Assembly: GCF_003224335.1 (NCBI RefSeq)
Contig: NZ_QKLF01000002.1
Span: forward strand, 620,001 to 684,000
DNA: 64,000 nucleotides
From: Curtobacterium sp. MCJR17_055
GTDB lineage: Bacteria > Actinomycetota > Actinomycetes > Actinomycetales > Microbacteriaceae
Reading direction: 5' to 3'
Part shown: in pieces, positions 48,706 through 57,887 of the stretch
Position numbering within the stretch: the first letter of the stretch is position 1
Layout of the letters: every line of letters begins with the position of its first letter
Notes under the pieces: model-generated
Databases searched by the model: none
The model's input: the letters and a program-made list of their open reading frames with translations, nothing else
Told to the model about the DNA's origin: nothing
Program-made: the position numbers and the translations under genes

Positions 48706-49434
48706 ATGCACAAGTCCGTCACCGCCGCGGTAGCGGCCACCGTGATCGCCGCGGGACTGTTCACCGCAGCCCCGGCGTCGGCGCTCCCCGCGTCGACGAA
48801 GGTCGTCGGGGGCGAGCGGGCGCCGGCGACCTCGTCGGTCGTGCAGCTCGAGGCGTCGGGCGGCGACATCCCCGCCGGGTACGTCAGCACGTGCACGGGC
48901 GAACAGATCACGGCGTCGTGGGTCCTGACCGCCCGACACTGCATCGACGGCATCGGCGCGATGAACGTGTACCACTCGAACTCGACGGTGAACCGCGGGA
49001 CCCCCGTGGCCGTGGACCGGGTGACCGCCGCGCCCGCCGGCGACATCGCGCTGGTGCACCTCCGGACCGCGTACGCGCTGTCCTCGTACACGCCGCTCGA
49101 CCTCACCGCGACCGCGAAGTCGAGCGGGACCGGCACGATCCAGGGCTACGGCCTGCGTGCGGACGCCGTGCAGTCCGACGGGCTGTACCAGGCGACCGTG
49201 TCCCTGACCGGGGCGAGCACCGACGCCTTCCGCGGTCGCGCGCAGCACGTCACAGGCGTCACGGGAGCGTCCAACCACGGAGACTCCGGTGGACCGCTCA
49301 TCGTCAACGGCAAGGTGGTCGGCGTGTGCTCGACGGGTGACAGCGCCGACCCGGGGGCGAACACGCGCGCCGGGTCGAACTACGCCCTGCTCGCGCAGGC
49401 GTCCTCGTGGATCCGGAGCACGGCCGGCGTCTGA
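48706..49434 (+). CDS. Secreted trypsin-like serine protease
   Basis: 242 residues. Signal peptide (cleavage about residue 27, ASA), then VVGG, the usual activation-site sequence of chymotrypsin-fold proteases. The triad is complete: His in TARHC, Asp in DIALVHL and Ser in GDSGGP. Two Cys pairs are likely. The substrate specificity pocket is not readable by eye. A terminator follows. Confidence 0.88.
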   Translation: MHKSVTAAVAATVIAAGLFTAAPASALPASTKVVGGERAPATSSVVQLEASGGDIPAGYVSTCTGEQITASWVLTARHCIDGIGAMNVYHSNSTVNRGTPVAVDRVTAAPAGDIALVHLRTAYALSSYTPLDLTATAKSSGTGTIQGYGLRADAVQSDGLYQATVSLTGASTDAFRGRAQHVTGVTGASNHGDSGGPLIVNGKVVGVCSTGDSADPGANTRAGSNYALLAQASSWIRSTAGV

Positions 49435-49463
49435 ACCGCACGGATTCCGACCCGCACGGACAC

Positions 49464-49499
49464 ACGGGCGTCACGGTCCCCACCGACCGTGGCGCCCGT
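49464..49499 (+). terminator. Terminator after the protease gene
   Basis: ACGGGCGTCACGGTC (49464-49478) and GACCGTGGCGCCCGT (49485-49499) form a 15-bp stem with a single mismatch and a 6-base loop. Confidence 0.7.
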
Positions 49500-49537
49500 C
49501 GTCGTGCGGGGAGCGTGCGGTCAGGACGGACCGGCGG

Positions 49538-50011
49538 TCAGCGGGATGCGTCGTCCGTCCCCGGTGTGGGTGCCGCGGTCGCCGCCTGCTCGTACAGGCC
49601 GGTCGCCAGGTCGTTGAGGACCGCGTGCAGGTCACCGCGGTGCCGGGTGTCGACGGCGCGGAGCATCGCGACGTAGCGACGGCGGTAGTCGCCGACGACC
49701 TCCTCGCCCGCAGGACGGAGGCGCAGCAGCGACCCACGACGGTCGTTCGGGTTCGGGGTCCGTTCGAGCAGACCGGCGGACGTCAGACGGTCGATCAGGT
49801 TCGTCACGGCGCCGGAGGTCAGGCCCAGGAACCCGGCGACCTCGGTCGGGGTGGAGTACCCGGTGTCACTGACGAGGACCAGCGCGCGCAGGCCGCTCTC
49901 GTGCACGCCGGCACGGGCGCTCAACTGCCCGACGAGGCTCGCGTTCGCGCGGACGACCGCGTCGAACGCGGCCATCAGGTCGGTCGCGCCGTCCTCGTCC
50001 TGTCCCGTCAC
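49538..50011 (-). CDS. MarR family regulator beside the TasA-like operon
   Basis: 157 residues. The winged helix reads TEVAGFLGLTSGAVTNLIDRLTSAGLLERT and the wing PNPNDRRGSLLRLRPAG. A GTG at 50011 is chosen; a longer N-terminus to 50140 is Ser/Gly-rich and unlikely. The gene is divergent from the TasA-like gene (50224). With a palindrome at 50152-50164 between them, control of that operon is the best guess. A second MarR protein at 54530 occupies the mirror position. Confidence 0.82.
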   Translation of the reverse strand: MTGQDEDGATDLMAAFDAVVRANASLVGQLSARAGVHESGLRALVLVSDTGYSTPTEVAGFLGLTSGAVTNLIDRLTSAGLLERTPNPNDRRGSLLRLRPAGEEVVGDYRRRYVAMLRAVDTRHRGDLHAVLNDLATGLYEQAATAAPTPGTDDASR

Positions 50012-50151
50012 CACCTGGTCCCGCCCCTCGCTCGTTGCGGAAGAGTACCGGGCCGACACGACCGTGCCGGACGCCGTCGCGCCTCCCGTCCTGCCCTGGC
50101 CCCCGCTCTGGGGGCGAACTCGGGCTTCCATCTGGCTCAACCGGTCATTAT

Positions 50152-50164
50152 CTTAATCATCAAG
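50152..50164. promoter_or_regulatory. Candidate MarR operator
   Basis: CTTAATCATCAAG is a 13-bp imperfect palindrome (one mismatch) in the only AT-rich stretch between the divergent MarR and TasA-like genes. MarR proteins typically bind such sites. Confidence 0.45.
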
Positions 50165-50223
50165 CAATCACTCCTCCGAAAGATTGCACCCCCACACCGA
50201 CTCACCGAACATCGAGGTACCCC

Positions 50224-50871
50224 GTGTCCAACCCGCTCCGCACCTCCCCGCTGAAGCGCCTCCGCTTCGCCCCCGTTGCGCTCCTCGCGGGCATCTTCGC
50301 CGCCGTGCTCCTGTCCCTCTCGCTCACCGGCACCCTCTCCGGGTTCGCCGCGAGCATCACGAACAGCAGCAACACCGCCGCCAGCGGCACGCTGATCATG
50401 CAGGAGCAGAACGCCAACGCGTCGGTCACCTGTCTCAGCACCGACGGCGGCTCGGTCTCCACCAACTCGGCGACCTGTTCGACCATCAACAAGTTCGGTG
50501 GCAGCACGACGATGACCCCGGGCAACACGGTCAACACCCCGATCACCATCAAGAACACGGGCACCGCCGCCGCGAACACCTTCACGCTGACCCCGGGCGC
50601 GACCTGCACGCAGACGGCGAACGGCACGTCGAACGGCACCGCGACCGACCTCTGCGCGAAGATGAACCTCGTCATCACCTCGGGCTCCACCACGGTCTTC
50701 TCCGGCACCCTCGCAAGCTTCAAGGGCGCCACCGCGATCTCGCTGCCCACCGCTCCCGCCGCCGGTGCGAGCGTCCCCTTCAACTTCGCCGTCACGCTCG
50801 ACTCCTCGGCCGGCAACACCTACCAGGGCCTCGCCGCCTCGGTCCCGATGACCTGGACCTTCACGGCCTGA
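50224..50871 (+). CDS. TasA/CalY-like secreted protein with SipW-type signal
   Basis: 215 residues. A long N-terminal helix (PVALLAGIFAAVLLSLSLTG) leads into LSGFAASITNSSNTAASGTL, the pattern at the mature start of TasA, CalY and other SipW-processed proteins. The body is Thr/Ser/Asn-rich (NTVNTPITIKNTGTAAANTF) with four Cys, and ends VPMTWTFTA like TasA-fold beta-sandwiches. It is likely exported and processed by the signal peptidase encoded next. TasA forms biofilm fibres in Bacillus; a fibre role here is inference. GTG start with GAGG eight bases upstream. Confidence 0.72.
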   Translation: MSNPLRTSPLKRLRFAPVALLAGIFAAVLLSLSLTGTLSGFAASITNSSNTAASGTLIMQEQNANASVTCLSTDGGSVSTNSATCSTINKFGGSTTMTPGNTVNTPITIKNTGTAAANTFTLTPGATCTQTANGTSNGTATDLCAKMNLVITSGSTTVFSGTLASFKGATAISLPTAPAAGASVPFNFAVTLDSSAGNTYQGLAASVPMTWTFTA

Positions 50872-50888
50872 TCCGCCCCGCCCAGACC

Positions 50889-50927
50889 GGCGACGCTCGA
50901 CCGACCCCCCTACGGTCGAGCGTCGCC
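50889..50927 (+). terminator. 15-bp perfect hairpin between TasA-like gene and sipW
   Basis: GGCGACGCTCGACCG (50889-50903) pairs perfectly with CGGTCGAGCGTCGCC (50913-50927). Its place within the operon suggests that the structural gene is expressed more than the peptidase downstream. Confidence 0.7.
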
Positions 50928-50965
50928 ATCACCCGTGACCGACACCGACCAGGACGGAGCAGCAC

Positions 50966-51850
50966 ATGAGCCAGACCTCGGCCATCCCGCTCAGCGGGAC
51001 ACTGCCGCGGCCGCTCCTGCGCGGGCGGACGTTCAGCCGCTCCGAGTCCGTCCTGGCCTGGTCCGTCGCCGTCGTCGCCGCGGTCCTCCTGACCGCCGCG
51101 ATGCTGTTCCTCACCAACGGCGGCCGCTGGTTCGTCGTCGAGACGCCGTCGATGGGTGAGACCGCCCCGGTCGGCACGCTCGTGCTCGACATGCCCGTGC
51201 AGGCCTCGTCGCTCCGCGTCGGCGACATCGTCTCGTACAGCGTCGCCGCGAACCCCGACGTCGTGTACACCCACCGGATCATCGAGATCGACCCCGACGG
51301 CGGCATCCGCGCCCGGGGCGACGTGAACGGCGCCGCCGACCCGTGGACCCTGACCCAGGACGACCTGGTCGGCGCCCCGGTCCTGCTCGTCCCGCACCTG
51401 GGCTGGCTCTTCAAGGCCGCCCCGGTCCTCCTGGTCGGGACGCTCCTCATCTGGGGCCTGACCAGCGCCTTCACCGACCGGGTCACCCGGAGCAGCCTGC
51501 GCATCGCCGGCGGCTCGCTCACGGTCTCGTACGCGGCCTTCCTGCTCAAGCCCTTCGTCAACGTCACGACGATCTCGAACAGCACGTCCCCCGGCTCGGT
51601 CGAGGCGACCGTCGTCTCCTCCGGGATCTTCCCCGTCCGCGTCGACGCGGTCGGCGGCAACGCCGTGCACCTCGTCGACGGCGAGGTGGGGCGGGTCACC
51701 ATCACCGAGCTCAACCGGCACGGTCACTACCAGCTCGTGTCGAGCATCGACCTCGACCCGGCGGGCTGGGCACTGCTCGTCGCGGCCTGCCTGGTCCCGC
51801 TCGTCCTCTGCCTGGTGGTCGGACGCGTGCAGACGGTGCGGCCCTCGTGA
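50966..51850 (+). CDS. SipW-type signal peptidase I
   Basis: 294 residues. One N-terminal helix (about 30-50) and the S26B core: catalytic Ser62 in ETPSMGETAPVG, then LRVGDIVSYS and YTHRIIEIDP with His103. The Ser-His pair, rather than Ser-Lys, marks the SipW/ER-type subfamily. Conserved GDVNGAADPWTL follows, then two further membrane segments and a long extracellular-side C-terminus with its own TTISNSTSPGS. It should cleave the TasA-like and LamG-like proteins encoded on either side. GTG of the next gene overlaps its stop. Confidence 0.85.
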   Translation: MSQTSAIPLSGTLPRPLLRGRTFSRSESVLAWSVAVVAAVLLTAAMLFLTNGGRWFVVETPSMGETAPVGTLVLDMPVQASSLRVGDIVSYSVAANPDVVYTHRIIEIDPDGGIRARGDVNGAADPWTLTQDDLVGAPVLLVPHLGWLFKAAPVLLVGTLLIWGLTSAFTDRVTRSSLRIAGGSLTVSYAAFLLKPFVNVTTISNSTSPGSVEATVVSSGIFPVRVDAVGGNAVHLVDGEVGRVTITELNRHGHYQLVSSIDLDPAGWALLVAACLVPLVLCLVVGRVQTVRPS

Positions 51851-52707
51851 ACCCCGGTCGTCTCCGCGACGGCAAGGTCGTCGCGCTCCTGCTGGTCGTC
51901 GCACTCGCCGTCGTCCTCCTCGTCAACCAGTTCGCCCCGACCCGTTCGGGCTTCAGCGCGAAGGTGACGAACGGGTCGAACTCCGCCGGCACCGCGGCGT
52001 CGAACACCTGCACCGGTGCGGTCGGCTTCGACGCCACCGCCAGCAATGCCCTCTTCGCGTACAAGCTGACCGAGCCGTCCGGCTCGACGACCGCGGCCGA
52101 CTTCTCCGGCAAGGGCGCGAACGGCACCTACCAGGGCGGGATGACCGCGAGCACCCCGAGCCCGATCGCCTGCCCCCGCGACCCCGGGACCGCGTGGCTC
52201 CTCGACGGAGCGTCCGACTTCCTCTCCACCCCCGCGGCGCAGCGGAACCCCGTGACCTTCAGCGAGGAGGTCTGGTTCCGCACCTCGGTGGCCGGCGGCC
52301 TGCTCATCGGCTTCGGTGGCAGCCAGGTCACCGTCTCCGGCCAGCACGACCGGCAGGTCTACCTCAACACGAACGGGCAGCTCGTCTTCGGCGCCTACAA
52401 CGGGGCCACGCAGGTGGTGACCTCGCCGAAGTCCTACAACGACGGCGCGTGGCACCACGTCGTCTCGACGATGTCCGCCACGACCGGCATGCGGTTGTAC
52501 GTCGACGGCGCGCTCGTCGCCTCGAACGCGAACTACACGGCGCCGGAGAACTACACCGGGTACTGGCGGATCGGGTACGACACGATCTCCGGCTGGCCCG
52601 GAGCGCCGGCGAACCCGTACTTCACGGGTTCCATGCGGTTCGCTGCGGTCTACAACTCCGTGCTCACCGCGGCACAGGTGAGCAGCCACTACGCCGCCGG
52701 GCGCTGA
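51847..52707 (+). CDS. SipW-processed LamG/concanavalin-like secreted protein
   Basis: 286 residues. The helix VVALLLVVALAVVLL is followed by RSGFSAKVTNGSNSAGTA, closely resembling the processing region of the TasA-like protein upstream (SGFAASITNSSNTAASGT). The mature part is a LamG/ConA-like sandwich: AWLLDGASDFLSTPAAQRNP, FSEEVWFRTSVAGGLL, HHVVSTMSATTGMRLYVDGA and YWRIGYD. Such domains bind carbohydrate or protein. It may be the adhesive component of the surface structure. GTG start in a GTGA overlap with the peptidase. Confidence 0.8.
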   Translation: MNPGRLRDGKVVALLLVVALAVVLLVNQFAPTRSGFSAKVTNGSNSAGTAASNTCTGAVGFDATASNALFAYKLTEPSGSTTAADFSGKGANGTYQGGMTASTPSPIACPRDPGTAWLLDGASDFLSTPAAQRNPVTFSEEVWFRTSVAGGLLIGFGGSQVTVSGQHDRQVYLNTNGQLVFGAYNGATQVVTSPKSYNDGAWHHVVSTMSATTGMRLYVDGALVASNANYTAPENYTGYWRIGYDTISGWPGAPANPYFTGSMRFAAVYNSVLTAAQVSSHYAAGR

Positions 52708-52726
52708 CGCTGACGCTGACGCTGAC
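52703..52726 (+). repeat. GCTGAC x4 tandem repeat at the stop codon
   Basis: Four copies of the hexamer GCTGAC start at the last codon of the LamG gene, putting TGA in frame at 52705, 52711, 52717 and 52723. The copies can pair with CGTCAGC at 52763-52769, giving a terminator-like hairpin between converging genes. Slippage would not change the protein. Confidence 0.6.
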
Positions 52727-52764
52727 GCCGGGGTCGGCCGTGGACCGGCGTTCGACCGGGCTCG

Positions 52765-53769
52765 TCAGCGGGCGCAGGAGGTGCGGCCGAGTCCGAACAG
52801 CCGGATCGTGGTGATCCGCACGGTGGACGGCGACGTGGCCGTCCACGTGTCGGTGAGGTCGGTGCGCACGCTGATGGTCGACGTCTTCCAGACGAAGAAG
52901 TCCGACGCGCCGAGCGTGACGTCCCGCTCGCCCGCAGCGGTGTTGATCCCGCTCGCGGCCCCGTCGACCAGGACGGTGAAGTGTTCGGGTGCGACCCCGG
53001 AGTAGGTCCATCCCACGTCGACCGCGGCGTTGCCGACGTTCGTGCAGGTGAGCCCGGTCACCGGGGTGGCGACCGCGGTGGTGATCGAACTGGCCTCGGT
53101 GGTCGTGGTCGCTGCGAAGGCAGCGGCCGCTGCGGGTGCGGGCAGTGCGACCCCGACGACGGCACACACCGTCGCCGCGACCACGACGGCCCGGGCGCGG
53201 GCGCGGGGGCGGCGCGGACGTGCGGCACGGTGACGGCCGTGGCGCGGGAGCCGGTCGGTCGGGGCGTCGGTGCGGGTGCGCACGGCGGGCACCACGGCGA
53301 AGCCGGCGAGCACGACGATCCCGGCGGCCAGTGCGACGAGGGGCACGGTCCGGTGCTCCGCGGCCCAGACGACCGGGAGCCCGACGAACGGGACACGCAG
53401 GTAGCCGACCCCGACGACCGAGGACCGCGCGACGGCGGTCGAGTCCGCCTCCGGGTTCGCGTCGCCCTTCGTGACGAGCTCGCCGTGGGCGTCCACGTCG
53501 TGGAGGCGGTGCAGGCGCAGCACGCCGGCGTGGTCGGGGTCCGGGAAGAGCAGCACCTGACCCGCGCGGAGGTCGTGGGCCGGGACCGGCTTGCTCACGA
53601 CGACGTCACCGGGCAGCAGGGTGGGCTGCATGGAGCCCGTCATCACGGTGGTGGTGTGCCACCCGAGTGCGAGCGGAGCGATGCCCCAGAACGCGACGCC
53701 CACGAGTGCCGCGATGACGCCACGAGCGGCGAGCACGACCGTGAACCGGAGCCACGACGACGAGCGCAT
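52765..53769 (-). CDS. Signal peptidase I fused to a secreted substrate-like domain
   Basis: 334 residues. Residues 1-165 are an S26 peptidase: N-terminal helix, Ser46 in MTGSMQPTLLPGD, His87 in LRLHRLHD, KGDANPEAD at 101-109, and a membrane helix about 141-165. Then comes an Arg-rich stretch (RPRRPRARA), a second hydrophobic segment (AVVVAATVCAVVGVALPAP) ending in AAAAAFA like a signal peptide, and a C-terminal domain of about 115 residues with TCTNVGNAAVDVGWTYSG and two Cys. The tail looks like a TasA-type or Fn3-like sandwich. Enzyme and substrate thus appear joined in one chain. ATG follows AGGAGG. Confidence 0.8.
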   Translation of the reverse strand: MRSSSWLRFTVVLAARGVIAALVGVAFWGIAPLALGWHTTTVMTGSMQPTLLPGDVVVSKPVPAHDLRAGQVLLFPDPDHAGVLRLHRLHDVDAHGELVTKGDANPEADSTAVARSSVVGVGYLRVPFVGLPVVWAAEHRTVPLVALAAGIVVLAGFAVVPAVRTRTDAPTDRLPRHGRHRAARPRRPRARARAVVVAATVCAVVGVALPAPAAAAAFAATTTTEASSITTAVATPVTGLTCTNVGNAAVDVGWTYSGVAPEHFTVLVDGAASGINTAAGERDVTLGASDFFVWKTSTISVRTDLTDTWTATSPSTVRITTIRLFGLGRTSCAR

Positions 53770-53811
53770 GCCGATCCTCCTGTCCGGTGGGCGTGCGGTG
53801 GTGGGCAGGGA

Positions 53812-54414
53812 CTAGAGGTTCTGGGCTTCCCAGGTGAAGCCGAGGCTGGCGGTGGCGCCCATGAGGGTCGCGGGTGCGTCGGGGGAGACGGTGTACGTGA
53901 TCTGGAAGGTCCGCGTCTCGGGCTTCGTGCCCGCGGTCTTCCACGTCCCGAGGCCGGACGCGTAGTCCTTCCGGGTCGACACGAAGGACGCGAGCGAGCC
54001 GTCGTAGAGAGTGCCGTCGGTCCCGGTCGCCGCCGTGAACCCGTCGCAGGTGCCGTAGCCGCCGCCGGTGCCCTGCTTGACCTGCAGGGTCACGGACGAG
54101 GCCAGGGCCTTGGTCTGGGTGACGTCCTTCGCGTACATGCGGACGGCGCTCGGCAGGCTGCCGCTCGAGGTCACCGCGATGCAGTTCGTGCCGGTGGACC
54201 CGGGCTTCAGGTTCGACGCGGAGAACAGCGCGCCGTTCGAGGCGTCGTTCGTCAACGCGACCGTGCCCATCGACCAGTTGTCGGCACCGTCGGACGAGGT
54301 CGCCGAGAAGGCCGAGTAGCTCGCCGTGGAGACGGCGACGCCGGCGGCGAGCAGCGCGGCGGGGATCACGGCGAAGGTGCCGAAGCGAGCGAGGGTGCGG
54401 GTAGGGCGACGCAT
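53812..54414 (-). CDS. TasA/CalY-like secreted protein
   Basis: 200 residues. A helix (FAVIPAALLAAGVAVSTA) is followed by SYSAFSATSSDGADNWSMGT, the classical TasA processing region (A-S-Y-S-A-F-S). The body includes FSASNLKPGSTGTNCIAVTS and RMYAKDVTQ, matching the TasA pattern of a core beta-sandwich, plus two Cys. It precedes the peptidase fusion by 42 bases in the same operon and should be its export partner. The ATG at 54414 is chosen; the frame extends nine codons further. Confidence 0.82.
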   Translation of the reverse strand: MRRPTRTLARFGTFAVIPAALLAAGVAVSTASYSAFSATSSDGADNWSMGTVALTNDASNGALFSASNLKPGSTGTNCIAVTSSGSLPSAVRMYAKDVTQTKALASSVTLQVKQGTGGGYGTCDGFTAATGTDGTLYDGSLASFVSTRKDYASGLGTWKTAGTKPETRTFQITYTVSPDAPATLMGATASLGFTWEAQNL

Positions 54415-54441
54415 TTCCGGGTTCCATCCTGATCGTGTCAC

Positions 54442-54493
54442 CTCGATTTTCGAGGCATCTACGACTGTACGCCTCGATTTTCGAGTTTGTCAA
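54442..54493 (-). promoter_or_regulatory. Strong promoter with two identical 13-bp palindromes
   Basis: On the minus strand TTGACA (54488-54493), an 18-base spacer and TACAGT (54464-54469) form a near-consensus promoter for the TasA-like gene. CTCGATTTTCGAG, a perfect palindrome with a 3-base centre, occurs twice: at 54473-54485, within the spacer, and at 54442-54454, just past the predicted start. The centres are 31 bp apart, about three helical turns. This is a textbook repressor layout; the MarR protein encoded divergently at 54530 is the likely binder. Confidence 0.7.
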
Positions 54494-54529
54494 TCTCCGT
54501 GATGAACGGATGTCGACTAGGGTCGCCTT

Positions 54530-55012
54530 GTGACCGCACCTCCTCGGCGCCCCTCGACCGCCGACTTCGACCGTCTCCTCGACGAGGCCGTGGCGACCCT
54601 CTACGGCGCACAGGTCGAGCACGCGCACCTCATGCAGCACCTCGCCGTCCGGCACGGCCTGAACCCGGTCGACCTCCGCGCGCTGCAGTTCCTCGGTGCG
54701 GTCGACGACGACCGCACGCCGAAGGAGCTCGGCGGGTACCTCGAGATGGGGACCGGGGCCGTGACCGCGCTCCTCGACCGGCTCACCCGGCAGGGACTCC
54801 TCGACCGCGTCCGGAACCCCGATGACCGGCGCAGCGTCCGCATCGAGCTCACGCTCGACGCGGTCGCGGTCCTCGGGTCCGTGCGGGCCGCGTACCGCCA
54901 GGTGCTCGAGAGTGCCGTTGCCCCCGAGTCCTTCGAGCTGTTCATCGACTTCACCGGACGGATGGCCGACGCTCTGCGAGCAGCCGCCCGTTCGGACGAC
55001 ACCGACCTCTGA
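54530..55012 (+). CDS. MarR family regulator of the TasA-like/peptidase operon
   Basis: 160 residues with a MarR winged helix: TPKELGGYLEMGTGAVTALL and wing RNPDDRRSVRIELTLDA. It is divergent from the TasA-like gene and separated by the double palindrome at 54442-54485. TAGGGT at 54518-54523 lies six bases before the GTG, so its message may be leaderless. By position it is the mirror image of the MarR gene at 49538. Confidence 0.84.
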   Translation: MTAPPRRPSTADFDRLLDEAVATLYGAQVEHAHLMQHLAVRHGLNPVDLRALQFLGAVDDDRTPKELGGYLEMGTGAVTALLDRLTRQGLLDRVRNPDDRRSVRIELTLDAVAVLGSVRAAYRQVLESAVAPESFELFIDFTGRMADALRAAARSDDTDL

Positions 55013-55106
55013 GGAAACGACGTCCGAGGACACGACGTCTGAGGATCCCGACGTCTCGATCCCGGTGCCCGACCCCGCGGTCGTCCGTCCGCGGCAGACT
55101 GGGGGC

Positions 55107-55772
55107 ATGGCACGGAAGACCGGCGTCGCGGCGCCCCGCATCACCCTGACCGAACCGGCGGACCTCGAGCCGTGGTCGCCCGGAGCCGGGGACGTGCTGA
55201 CCGGTGACCGGATCGACGGCAAGCGCATCGACCTGCTCGACGTGGCGGGGGAGCGGCTGCCCGACCTGGAGCTCGAGGAGTGCGTCGTCGGGACCCTCCG
55301 GGCCGACGGCGCCGACCTGCGCGGGCTCCGCATCCGGGACACCGTGGTCGAGGTGCTGGACGCCCCCGTGCTCCGCGCTCAGAGCGGCGCGTGGCGCGAG
55401 GTCCGGATCGCCGGCGGGCGGATCGGGTCGGCCGAGCTGTACGACAGTTCTTTCAGCGCGGTGGAGTTCATCGGCATGAAGCTCGGGTTCGTGAACCTCC
55501 GCGCGTCGGTCCTCACCGACGTGGTGTTCCGCGACTGCGTCATCGACGAGGTCGACATCGCGGACGCCCGGCTGCAGCGCGTGGCCTTCCCGGGCAGCAC
55601 GATCCGGGAGGTCGCCGGGGCGGACACCCGCATCGAGGACGTGGACCTCCGCGGCGCCGACCTCGACCGGGTGGAGCGGCTCGACGGGCTGCGGGGTGCG
55701 ACGATCGGCGGCGAGCAGCTGTACACGCTCGCGCCGCTGCTCGCCGCACAGGCCGGGTACCGGGTCGAGTGA
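55107..55772 (+). CDS. Pentapeptide-repeat-like protein
   Basis: 221 residues. A series of short strands of the form A(D/N)LxG/xx is seen: RADGADLRGLRIRDT, YDSSFSAVEFIGMKLGFVNL, RASVLTDVVFRDCVIDEVDI, DLRGADLDRV. This predicts a quadrilateral beta-helix. Function cannot be inferred; relatives include gyrase-protecting proteins, but many pentapeptide proteins have no known role. CAGACT sits six bases before the ATG. It is coupled (GTGA) to a DUF6314 gene. Confidence 0.78.
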   Translation: MARKTGVAAPRITLTEPADLEPWSPGAGDVLTGDRIDGKRIDLLDVAGERLPDLELEECVVGTLRADGADLRGLRIRDTVVEVLDAPVLRAQSGAWREVRIAGGRIGSAELYDSSFSAVEFIGMKLGFVNLRASVLTDVVFRDCVIDEVDIADARLQRVAFPGSTIREVAGADTRIEDVDLRGADLDRVERLDGLRGATIGGEQLYTLAPLLAAQAGYRVE

Positions 55773-56206
55773 CGGCCACCGAGGCGTCCGCCCCGGCACT
55801 GCTGCTGCCCACCGACCTGCTCGGGTGGTGGGACCTGCACCGGACGGTGCACGACCGCCTCGCCGGGGTGACGGGCACGGTGACCGGCTCCACCGAATTG
55901 ACGGCCGAGGACGACGGGTCCGTGCGCTGGCACGAGGCGGGGACGATGGTCTTCGGCGCCACCGAGACGCCGGTGTGGCGCACCCTGTCCGTCCGACGCG
56001 GCACCGGTGACCGGTGGTACGTGCACTTCGCCGACGGCCGGCCGTTCCACGACTGGGCGTGGGGTGACCGCGTCGAGCACGCCTGTGCGCCGGACGACTA
56101 CACGGGCCTCCTCACCGGGACGCCCGAGCGGTGGCGGGTCCGGTGGGAGGCCCGTGGTCCGGCCAAGGACCTGGTGCTCGACAGCGTGCTGACGCCGACG
56201 CGGTGA
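55769..56206 (+). CDS. DUF6314 family protein
   Basis: 145 residues of the DUF6314 family, seen in actinobacteria and proteobacteria and recognised from LGWWDLHRTVHDRLAGVTGT, VRWHEAGTMVF and WYVHFADGRPFHDW. The family resembles a small beta-barrel of unknown function. Start is a GTG overlapping the stop of the pentapeptide gene by four bases, which suggests a joint role. Confidence 0.7.
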   Translation: MTATEASAPALLLPTDLLGWWDLHRTVHDRLAGVTGTVTGSTELTAEDDGSVRWHEAGTMVFGATETPVWRTLSVRRGTGDRWYVHFADGRPFHDWAWGDRVEHACAPDDYTGLLTGTPERWRVRWEARGPAKDLVLDSVLTPTR

Positions 56207-56248
56207 CGCCGGTGCACCGCCGCAGCCGCAGCCACGCGGCCGGACCGA

Positions 56249-57208
56249 TCAGCGCCGCAGTGCCGCCGCCACGTCTGCCTGCAGCAGGTCCCCGTGCACC
56301 GCGGCCCCGGTCTGCGTGCCCGCTGCCGCCGAGCCGATGACCGTCAGCATCGCGTTCGCCACGTTGCCGGCCGCGTAGACGCCTGGGACGTCGGTCTTCC
56401 CGAGCGCGTCGACGGCCAGGACCCGGCCGAACCGGGTCCCGTTGGCCTCCTGGTCCACGGGCGCCAGTCCGAGCCCCGCGGCCCAGTCGACCCGGGCCTC
56501 GACACGACTCGCGGCCGCCAGGGCGTCGAGTCCGACGACGGACCCGTCCGGCAGCTCCACGCCGCTGAGCCGGTCGCCGTCGGACAGCACTCGCGCGACG
56601 GGGGAGTGGACGACCGTGATCCCCCGTGCGGCGAAACCGGCGAGGACGGTGTCGTCGACGGTGCCGGGATCGGCCACGAAGGCCGTCACGTCCTCGCTGA
56701 GGGCCCGGAACATCTGCACCTGGTGCGCTCCGGCCGGTGTCGTCACCAGGACGCCGATCCGTCGGTCGCGGACCTCCCACCCGTGGCAGAACGGGCAGTG
56801 CACGACCCCGCGGCCCCACTGCTCGGCCAGTCCGGGGACGTCCGGCAGCAGGTCGACGCCACCGCCGGCGATGACCACGCGGCGTGCTGCGACGACCTCG
56901 CCGCTGTCCAGGGTGAGCCGGAACCCGACCGGGTCGTCCTCGGTGACGGGCGCGGCGGACGCGGCCACGATCCTCCCGTCCGTGACGGTGACGCCGTAGC
57001 GGGCCACCTCCTCTCGGCCGACGCGGACGAGGTCGAGGGGTGCGGTGCCCTCCTGGCCCAGGTAGTTGTGGACGCCCTCGGCGGGGGCGTTGCGCGGCTC
57101 GCCCGCGTCGACGACGAGCACGGAGCGGCGCGAGCGCCCCAGGATGAGCGCTGCGGACAGGCCGGCGGCACCGCCGCCGACGACGATGACGTCATGGAGT
57201 TCGGACAT
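56249..57208 (-). CDS. FAD-dependent oxidoreductase, thioredoxin reductase-like
   Basis: 319 residues with two nucleotide domains. The FAD site is VIVVGGGAAGLSAALILGRS; the redox motif is CPFCHGWE, where the usual CPxCxGx pattern with two Cys in thioredoxin reductases is retained (CPFC). GVYAAGNVANAM near the end matches the FAD loop. The truncated form without a close second CxxC elsewhere is common in actinobacterial homologues, and the electron acceptor is unknown. It is divergent from an XRE-cupin regulator, separated by a palindrome. Confidence 0.82.
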   Translation of the reverse strand: MSELHDVIVVGGGAAGLSAALILGRSRRSVLVVDAGEPRNAPAEGVHNYLGQEGTAPLDLVRVGREEVARYGVTVTDGRIVAASAAPVTEDDPVGFRLTLDSGEVVAARRVVIAGGGVDLLPDVPGLAEQWGRGVVHCPFCHGWEVRDRRIGVLVTTPAGAHQVQMFRALSEDVTAFVADPGTVDDTVLAGFAARGITVVHSPVARVLSDGDRLSGVELPDGSVVGLDALAAASRVEARVDWAAGLGLAPVDQEANGTRFGRVLAVDALGKTDVPGVYAAGNVANAMLTVIGSAAAGTQTGAAVHGDLLQADVAAALRR

Positions 57209-57240
57209 GGGGGGGATCCTCTGCCGAGCGGATCGTCGGT

Positions 57241-57267
57241 GGCAAGCTCCGTTGCCGGCATGGCAAC
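57241..57267. promoter_or_regulatory. GTTGCC/GGCAAC operator between reductase and XRE gene
   Basis: GTTGCC (57251-57256) and GGCAAC (57262-57267) form a palindrome with a 5-base centre, and GGCAA (57241-57245) is a third half-site. The palindrome overlaps CAACAT (57264-57269), the -10-like box six bases before the start of the XRE gene. Autoregulation, and control of the divergent reductase, is likely. Confidence 0.6.
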
Positions 57268-57275
57268 ATGGGGGC

Positions 57276-57887
57276 ATGGCACACGCACGGGAGGCCCGCC
57301 CCACGGAGCCGACGACGGCCGACGTCGTGGACGCGGTCGGCCCACGGCTCCGGGCGCTCCGTACGCGACGGGGCACCACCCTCGCCGCGCTCGCGGAGCG
57401 CACCGGCATCTCGGTGAGCACCCTGTCCCGGCTGGAGTCCGGCCAGCGGAAGCCGACGCTCGAACTGCTGCTGCCGCTCGCCCGCGCGTACCAGGTGCCG
57501 CTCGACGACCTCGTCGGGGCACCGGCGACCGGGGACCCCCGGGTGCACCTCAAGCCCGAGCGGCACGGTCGCCGTGTCGTGATCCCCCTGACGAAGCGGA
57601 CCGGGGGCGTGCGCTCGTTCAAGCAGCTCATCGAGCCGCACGACCACGGCTCGGACACGACGCTGAAGACCCACGAGGGCTACGAGTGGCTCTACGTGCT
57701 GTCCGGTCGGCTCCGACTGGCGCTCGGCGACGAGGTGTTCGACCTCGGCCCGGGCGAGGTCGTCGAGTTCGACACCCACACCCCGCACTGGGTCGGCAAC
57801 GTGACCGACCAGGTCACCGAGGTGCTCTGCCTGTACGGGCCGCAGGGGGAGCGGGCGCACGTCCGGTCCAGCCCGCGGGCTGGCTGA
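57276..57887 (+). CDS. XRE family regulator with cupin domain
   Basis: 203 residues. A helix-turn-helix (ALRTRRGTTLAALAERTGIS, STLSRLESGQRKPTLELLL) precedes a C-terminal cupin: KTHEGYEWLYVLSGRLRLAL and PGEVVEFDTHTPHWVG with the metal-binding His/Glu set. The family senses small molecules such as amines or sulfur compounds. ATG 57276 lies just past the palindromic operator. Confidence 0.85.
   Translation: MAHAREARPTEPTTADVVDAVGPRLRALRTRRGTTLAALAERTGISVSTLSRLESGQRKPTLELLLPLARAYQVPLDDLVGAPATGDPRVHLKPERHGRRVVIPLTKRTGGVRSFKQLIEPHDHGSDTTLKTHEGYEWLYVLSGRLRLALGDEVFDLGPGEVVEFDTHTPHWVGNVTDQVTEVLCLYGPQGERAHVRSSPRAG

Follow-up and report, generated by a model that had tools for sequence, protein, structure and literature searches.

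Two converging operons, each with a divergent gene for a MarR-family regulator, lie in a 64,000-nucleotide stretch of the genome of Curtobacterium sp. MCJR17_055 (the window; all positions are counted from its first letter). The left operon, module A, is read on the plus strand in the order SubA, SipA and a LamG gene, and the right one, module B, on the minus strand as SubB followed by SipB. SubA and SubB are export substrates with a predicted TasA-type fold, and SipA and SipB are signal peptidases of the SipW type, the latter fused to a C-terminal β domain. With a probability of roughly 60%, these are two independent, MarR-controlled modules for TasA-type fibres, each equipped with its own SipW and with an exported, strand-donating head that caps the fibre. 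The proposed system is ordinary in kind, being of the TasA/SipW fibre type, and unusual in build, with MarR-linked actinobacterial modules and a peptidase fused to exchangeable heads. The characterisation of TasA fibres has so far centred on Bacillus (PMC10903470). A first-pass annotation of this DNA had described all seven genes, their convergence and an actinobacterial host, and in this it was right; its term “mirror-image” fits the layout and not the content, as the left module encodes its LamG partner in a gene of its own and the counterpart on the right is a fused domain that is not LamG.

The TasA-like nature claimed for both substrates finds support in structure searches. For the predicted models of SubA and SubB, the TasA fibre is the top-ranked solved structure in both search programs used, and both models appear to adopt the TasA β-sandwich. 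The two proteins also match each other in a profile comparison (probability 97.3%, E 2e-11). Comparison of the SubB profile with a single camelysin-like substrate from this genome gave a probability of 55% (E 1e-4), which speaks neither for nor against kinship. The N-terminal parts of the two models, residues 4-49 and 1-52 with the signal segment included, are of low confidence. Family searches gave no match for SubA, the sole row being CARDB at E 0.53, and the SipW-substrate models TIGR04088 and TIGR04089 gave none at E up to 1 for SubA, SubB, the LamG protein or SipB. The LamG protein itself matches PF13385 at 5.5e-23. It also drew a “TafC fimbrial” match of 20.4 bits, set against a cut-off of 410 and lying inside the LamG domain, which was given no weight; no paper joining TafC with fimbrial was found in the open-access literature searched.

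SipW-type peptidases use a Ser/His catalytic pair in which His replaces Lys. Both enzymes carry the pair, Ser46 and His87 of SipB being invariant in 25 aligned sequences and Ser62 and His103 of SipA in an alignment of 13. SipB matches TIGR02228 at 62 bits (cut-off 51.85) and SipA falls below that cut-off at 44.4 bits (1.5e-11); the Bacillus SipW equivalog NF046067, with its cut-off of 190 bits, is reached by neither (SipA 21.5, SipB 48.5 bits). A tree of 69 catalytic domains, thinned at 80% identity from 123 distinct ones, places the window's peptidases in separate clades, a SipA-type clade of 12 rows (support 100/99) and a SipB-type clade of 35 rows (99/95), both of which extend to other families of the class. 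Every member stands in the same locus as its own substrate type (12/12 for A, 35/35 for B), a count to be read with the fact that many of these loci were fetched via those substrates. Forcing the window's SipA and SipB together on the tree is rejected by the approximately unbiased (AU) test with p 4e-24, and on the tree and this test a recent duplication of the modules is rejected.

The two modules also seldom lie together. SubA was found in 59 of 66 Curtobacterium genomes, in two of them as 40-residue matches, and SubB in 64 of the 66 when distant copies are included. Full-length SubB at least 78% identical to that of the window occurs in 14 genomes, the window's own included, and the best copy in most other Curtobacterium genomes is about 50-60% identical; one further genome, G158, has the window-type copy (G158:C1:3494448-3495042) in three separately matched pieces, so that it is apparently broken. 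A class-wide survey that scored at most 10 candidates per genome recovered SubA in at least 15 and SubB in at least 28 of 296 genomes. No more than 4 of the 66 Curtobacterium genomes (G000, G183, G187 and G192) have SubA and SubB close together, at a distance of about 3 kb, although further cases may be masked by breaks in draft assemblies. The right-hand neighbours of module B are the same in G169 as in the window (52764-57877 is collinear), and SubA lies there on another contig. Module B loci of other genera (n=9, 10-12 kb) have SubB followed by SipB in 9/9 and a recognisable divergent MarR gene in 6/9. Each module recurs as a unit of its own.

The unusual part is module B, whose SipW is fused, in many actinobacteria, to exchangeable domains (LamG, ice-binding-like, Ig or a small domain). 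SipB consists of a peptidase part (residues 1 to about 160), an Arg-rich loop, a hydrophobic segment (194-212) and the C-terminal β domain, and the alignment of 25 SipB proteins (A3) shows the same succession of catalytic domain, membrane segment, loop, further hydrophobic segment and passenger. The 15 residues before the further segment hold 8 Lys/Arg in the window protein and 1-11 in 17 other proteins (only 2 in L015 and 1 in L125), a charge pattern typical of exported, signal-like segments. Fetched loci, picked by best match and rich in Curtobacterium, contained 74 fused B-type SipW proteins, 43 of them non-redundant. Among the 43, Pfam (E up to 0.01) recognises Laminin_G_3 in 12, Ice_binding in 3, Big_7 in 1 (L160) and fn3 in 1, and a purpose-built LamG model marks 15. 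The fusions to an ice-binding-like domain (PF11999; L026, L027 and L028) come from three genomes of the window's family. Mapped on the SipW tree, the 29 labelled rows require at least 4 changes of head type, the unassigned small heads being counted as one type; with “no head” included as a state, the rows number 33 and the changes 6. The window-type head has about 120 residues and is Fn3-like by eye. In module A the head is a separate gene whose start overlaps the SipA stop, and the SipA-LamG pair is kept in 10/10 named loci. SipA has four hydrophobic segments, and the domain between the third and fourth (residues ~200-266), conserved in the alignment of 13, is possibly a fixed anchor for the fibre.

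Heads and subunits of a module resemble each other at the N-terminus. Behind the signal-like segment SubA begins GF and SubB begins AF. The first-pass annotation had noted the motif SGF(A/S)Ax(I/V)TNxSN in both left substrates, and it is indeed present in nearly identical form as SGFAASITNSSN in SubA and SGFSAKVTNGSN in the LamG protein. In module B, the fused heads, compared by alignment column and with no pattern imposed, score nearer SubB than SubA in 24/25 cases (the exception is L074), including 7/7 of the LamG-bearing ones. The corresponding module A result, 30 of 30 nearer SubA, was not used as evidence: the anchor is A-like and 23/70 LamG rows were left out. A permutation test of the N-termini (0/500) ignores relatedness and shares this anchor bias. 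The donor strand of TasA is N-terminal and uses F29 (PMC9674648). A study of TapA describes a complete Ig fold proposed to help start TasA filaments, N-terminal residues that resemble those of TasA, and a tapA stop that overlaps the sipW start, with no conservation of TapA even within Bacillus (PMC10151520). Because module B heads have SubB-like N-termini, TasA has an N-terminal donor strand and TapA is proposed to start filaments, we suggest that the heads are strand donors and caps.

Each operon has a divergent MarR gene and a palindromic site, as first annotated. Both regulators have a winged-helix MarR domain above cut-off (MarR_L PF01047, 41.8 bits, 1e-10; MarR_R PF12802, 52.2 bits, 6.7e-14), and 13 bp palindromes lie upstream of SubA and of SubB. 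The site CTTAATCATCAAG upstream of SubA is the only match to CTTRATNATYAAG in the window, and none was seen in 100 shuffles; a search for CTCGAAAATCGAG with up to 1 mismatch gave two matches in the window, both exact, and 0/100 shuffles have two. One copy sits in the spacer of a sigma-70-like promoter and the other just downstream of its -10 hexamer; this promoter agrees with the consensus at 10/12 positions and is the sole one in 49400-55100 (50 shuffles, mean 0.0, sd 0.1). Palindrome type tracks MarR type within Curtobacterium. The operator survey covered 44 loci with distinct SubA and 43 SubB loci, of which 5 and 9, respectively, showed no divergent MarR and did not enter the operator counts. 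In 31/44 loci the gene divergent from SubA encodes a regulator with 56-100% identity to MarR_L, and 24 of these 31 have CTTRATNRTY upstream of SubA; L012 has it too, with a MarR only 36% alike. The strict CTCGAAAATCGAG type, CTCGA[AT]3TCGAG, occurs in 9/13 SubB loci with a MarR_R orthologue (65-99%), in 0/21 with a divergent MarR only 31-48% alike, and the CTCGA palindrome in 0/44 SubA loci. Conversely, CTTRATNRTY occurs in 0/13 SubB loci with a MarR_R orthologue and in 17/21 of those with the less similar MarR. Operator and regulator thus change together in Curtobacterium, a pattern that control of each operon by its own MarR would predict.

A working scheme may be drawn from these features. 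The divergent MarR would bind the promoter palindromes and repress the operon until a signal relieves it, whereupon SubA or SubB, as the TasA-fold subunit, would be made together with its dedicated SipW-type peptidase. Cleavage by the peptidase behind the hydrophobic segment would leave a mature protein that starts at the A/G-F motif or close to it, and the subunits would polymerise by inserting the N-terminal strand into the next subunit, as in TasA, if fold and motif are a guide. Each module would export one head with a similar N-terminal strand and a different domain, in A the separate LamG protein and in B the C-terminal domain of SipB itself. Cut free or still tethered, the head may cap one fibre end, as an adhesive tip or an initiator, by lending its strand to a subunit. 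Modules A and B would adjoin by chance. A bolder version is conceivable, with the odds against it, in which actinobacteria make the tip of a TasA-type fibre as the C-terminal portion of its signal peptidase. The peptidase would then release this adhesin from itself, and the first subunit would receive a strand from it. If so, export, initiation and tip identity would be coupled in one protein, swaps of the fused domain (LamG, ice-binding-like, Ig, small β) would retarget the fibre in evolution, and a cell could have several separately switched kinds of fibre.

Several results weigh against two capped-fibre modules. Foldseek TM-scores against TasA are modest (0.49 and 0.46; E 1.5e-3 for SubA), and the SubA and SubB models were built on 25 and 16 sequences. 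Neither substrate passes the TasA/camelysin sequence model PF12389, for which SubB gives a single sub-threshold match (13.7 bits, cut-off 22.5), and their profiles (A1 and A2) find no TasA chain among PDB sequences, A1 giving no match at E up to 10 and A2 five weak ones (LPXTG protein, surface-layer protein, CloQ). Neither a wall anchor nor an assembly factor could be identified for the modules. The window-type SipB head has no confident family match and at least 26/43 fused tails have no Pfam head; 7/25 module B heads begin PW or PF and not AF, and several of the score margins behind the 24/25 are small. Seven SubA loci of other genera with a divergent MarR (35-43%) have neither operator motif, and the operator and motif correlations could come from shared descent. 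The fold by itself is no proof of polymerisation, and other β sandwiches (BcsB, glycosidase domains, viral capsid proteins) turn up lower in the same structure lists, so that the secreted proteins might be soluble or wall-bound matrix proteins that form no fibre. This is improbable, as the TasA fibre is the best match, joined for SubB by archaeal bundling pili, type 1 pilus subunits account for many of the rows that follow for SubB, and the low-confidence N-terminal parts leave room for a free donor strand.

It is also rather unlikely that, instead of being tips, the SipB tail and the LamG protein act as TapA-like chaperones or initiators at the cell surface, folded partners from which SubA and SubB filaments start and which remain near the membrane. 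The genetic linkage to the peptidase, by overlap in module A and by fusion in module B, and the properties of TapA given above speak for it, but the exchange with LamG and ice-binding-like domains better suits ligand binding than a pure chaperone, and TapA itself lacks conservation even in its own genus. The first-pass annotation had seen a duplicated pair that forms one two-part adhesive fibre. Adjacency and convergence in this genome and three relatives agree with such a pair, which is nevertheless very improbable given the separate SipW clades, the rarity of the adjacency, the distinct palindromes, the module-specific N-termini and the G169 arrangement, and this part of the annotation is not supported.

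Among known systems close to the two fibre modules proposed here is the tapA-sipW-tasA operon of Bacillus subtilis, which likewise has a dedicated SipW peptidase, a TasA-fold subunit, another exported partner whose gene overlaps sipW (PMC10151520) and negative control by a regulator, SinR there and presumably MarR here. The Curtobacterium subunits, unlike those of B. subtilis, are unrecognised by TasA/camelysin sequence models, the partner is a LamG protein or a peptidase-fused domain, the regulator is MarR and not SinR, and there are two modules. In the Bacillus cereus SipW/TasA/CalY/CapP system, filament subunits are similarly processed by SipW and assembled, independently of sortase, with a partner; there, however, one SipW serves three substrates, and CapP is chaperone-like with an oligomerising N-domain and is neither fused nor LamG (PMC13082335). 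Archaeal bundling pili (Pyrobaculum calidifontis, 7ueg) resemble SubB at Foldseek E 8.2e-4 and SubA at 0.11, in an archaeal host. Chaperone-usher pili (FimA/FimH) are alike in working only, in that they combine strand exchange with an adhesive tip; they depend on a Gram-negative periplasmic chaperone and usher. The SubB model also resembles Fim subunits. The same genome has a third SipW locus (L122, G000:C7:57000-68000), again with a SipW-type peptidase and exported substrates, one above the TIGR04089 cut-off and another above that of PF12389, plus an unassigned exported protein; the SipW of this locus belongs to neither clade A nor clade B, and a search of the locus turned up no counterpart of the window's MarR or LamG. 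At L123 (G000:C6:460000-470000) a TIGR04089 substrate has no TIGR02228 match nearby, the nearest on the contig being about 425 kb away.

Among the matches listed from the open-access literature, outside which lie most subscription papers and bioRxiv preprints, no paper deals with these modules or with SipW fused to LamG or ice-binding domains. “Apparently undescribed” may hold for the modules and not for TasA/SipW fibres, which are well known. A MarR-switched modular form across Curtobacterium, reported as the most abundant genus in one leaf-litter community (PMC5118839), would extend TasA fibres to actinobacteria, and a peptidase fused to exchangeable heads would make the start and capping of TasA-type fibres directly testable; the LamG and ice-binding-like heads hint at what such fibres might hold.

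Table 1. Features of modules A and B, with positions in the window.
Feature	Position	Strand	Description
MarR_L	49538-50140	-	MarR-family regulator, PF01047; TTG start assumed
Palindrome CTTAATCATCAAG	50152-50164	+	Operator-like, upstream of SubA
SubA	50224-50871	+	GTG start, 215 aa; predicted TasA-fold export substrate, probable module A fibre subunit
SipA	50966-51850	+	294 aa; SipW/archaeal-type signal peptidase, extra C-terminal domain between two hydrophobic segments
LamG protein	51847-52707	+	GTG start, 286 aa; ConA-like, SipW-type N-terminal segment; proposed module A head
SipB	52765-53769	-	334 aa; signal peptidase fused to C-terminal β domain
SubB	53812-54414	-	200 aa; predicted TasA-fold export substrate, probable module B fibre subunit
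Palindrome CTCGAAAATCGAG, copy 1	54442-54454	-	Operator-like, downstream of -10 hexamer
Sigma-70-like promoter TTGACA-18-TACAGT	54464-54493	-	Upstream of SubB-SipB
Palindrome CTCGAAAATCGAG, copy 2	54473-54485	-	Operator-like, between -35 and -10
MarR_R	54530-55012	+	MarR-family regulator, PF12802, divergent from module B

The true start of MarR_L may be near 50014, because the match in several relatives starts no earlier than residue 34-44. The closest named match of SipA is from Curtobacterium sp. MCBD17_032 (97%). No terminators were found within 49400-55100; between the converging operons, 4.5 exact repeats of CGCTGA (52702-52728) run over the LamG stop codon. Adjoining MarR_L, at 48706-49434 on the plus strand, is a gene for a secreted trypsin-like serine protease (PF00089, 4.1e-22), which has a match in L004 and none in L003, the locus most like the window.

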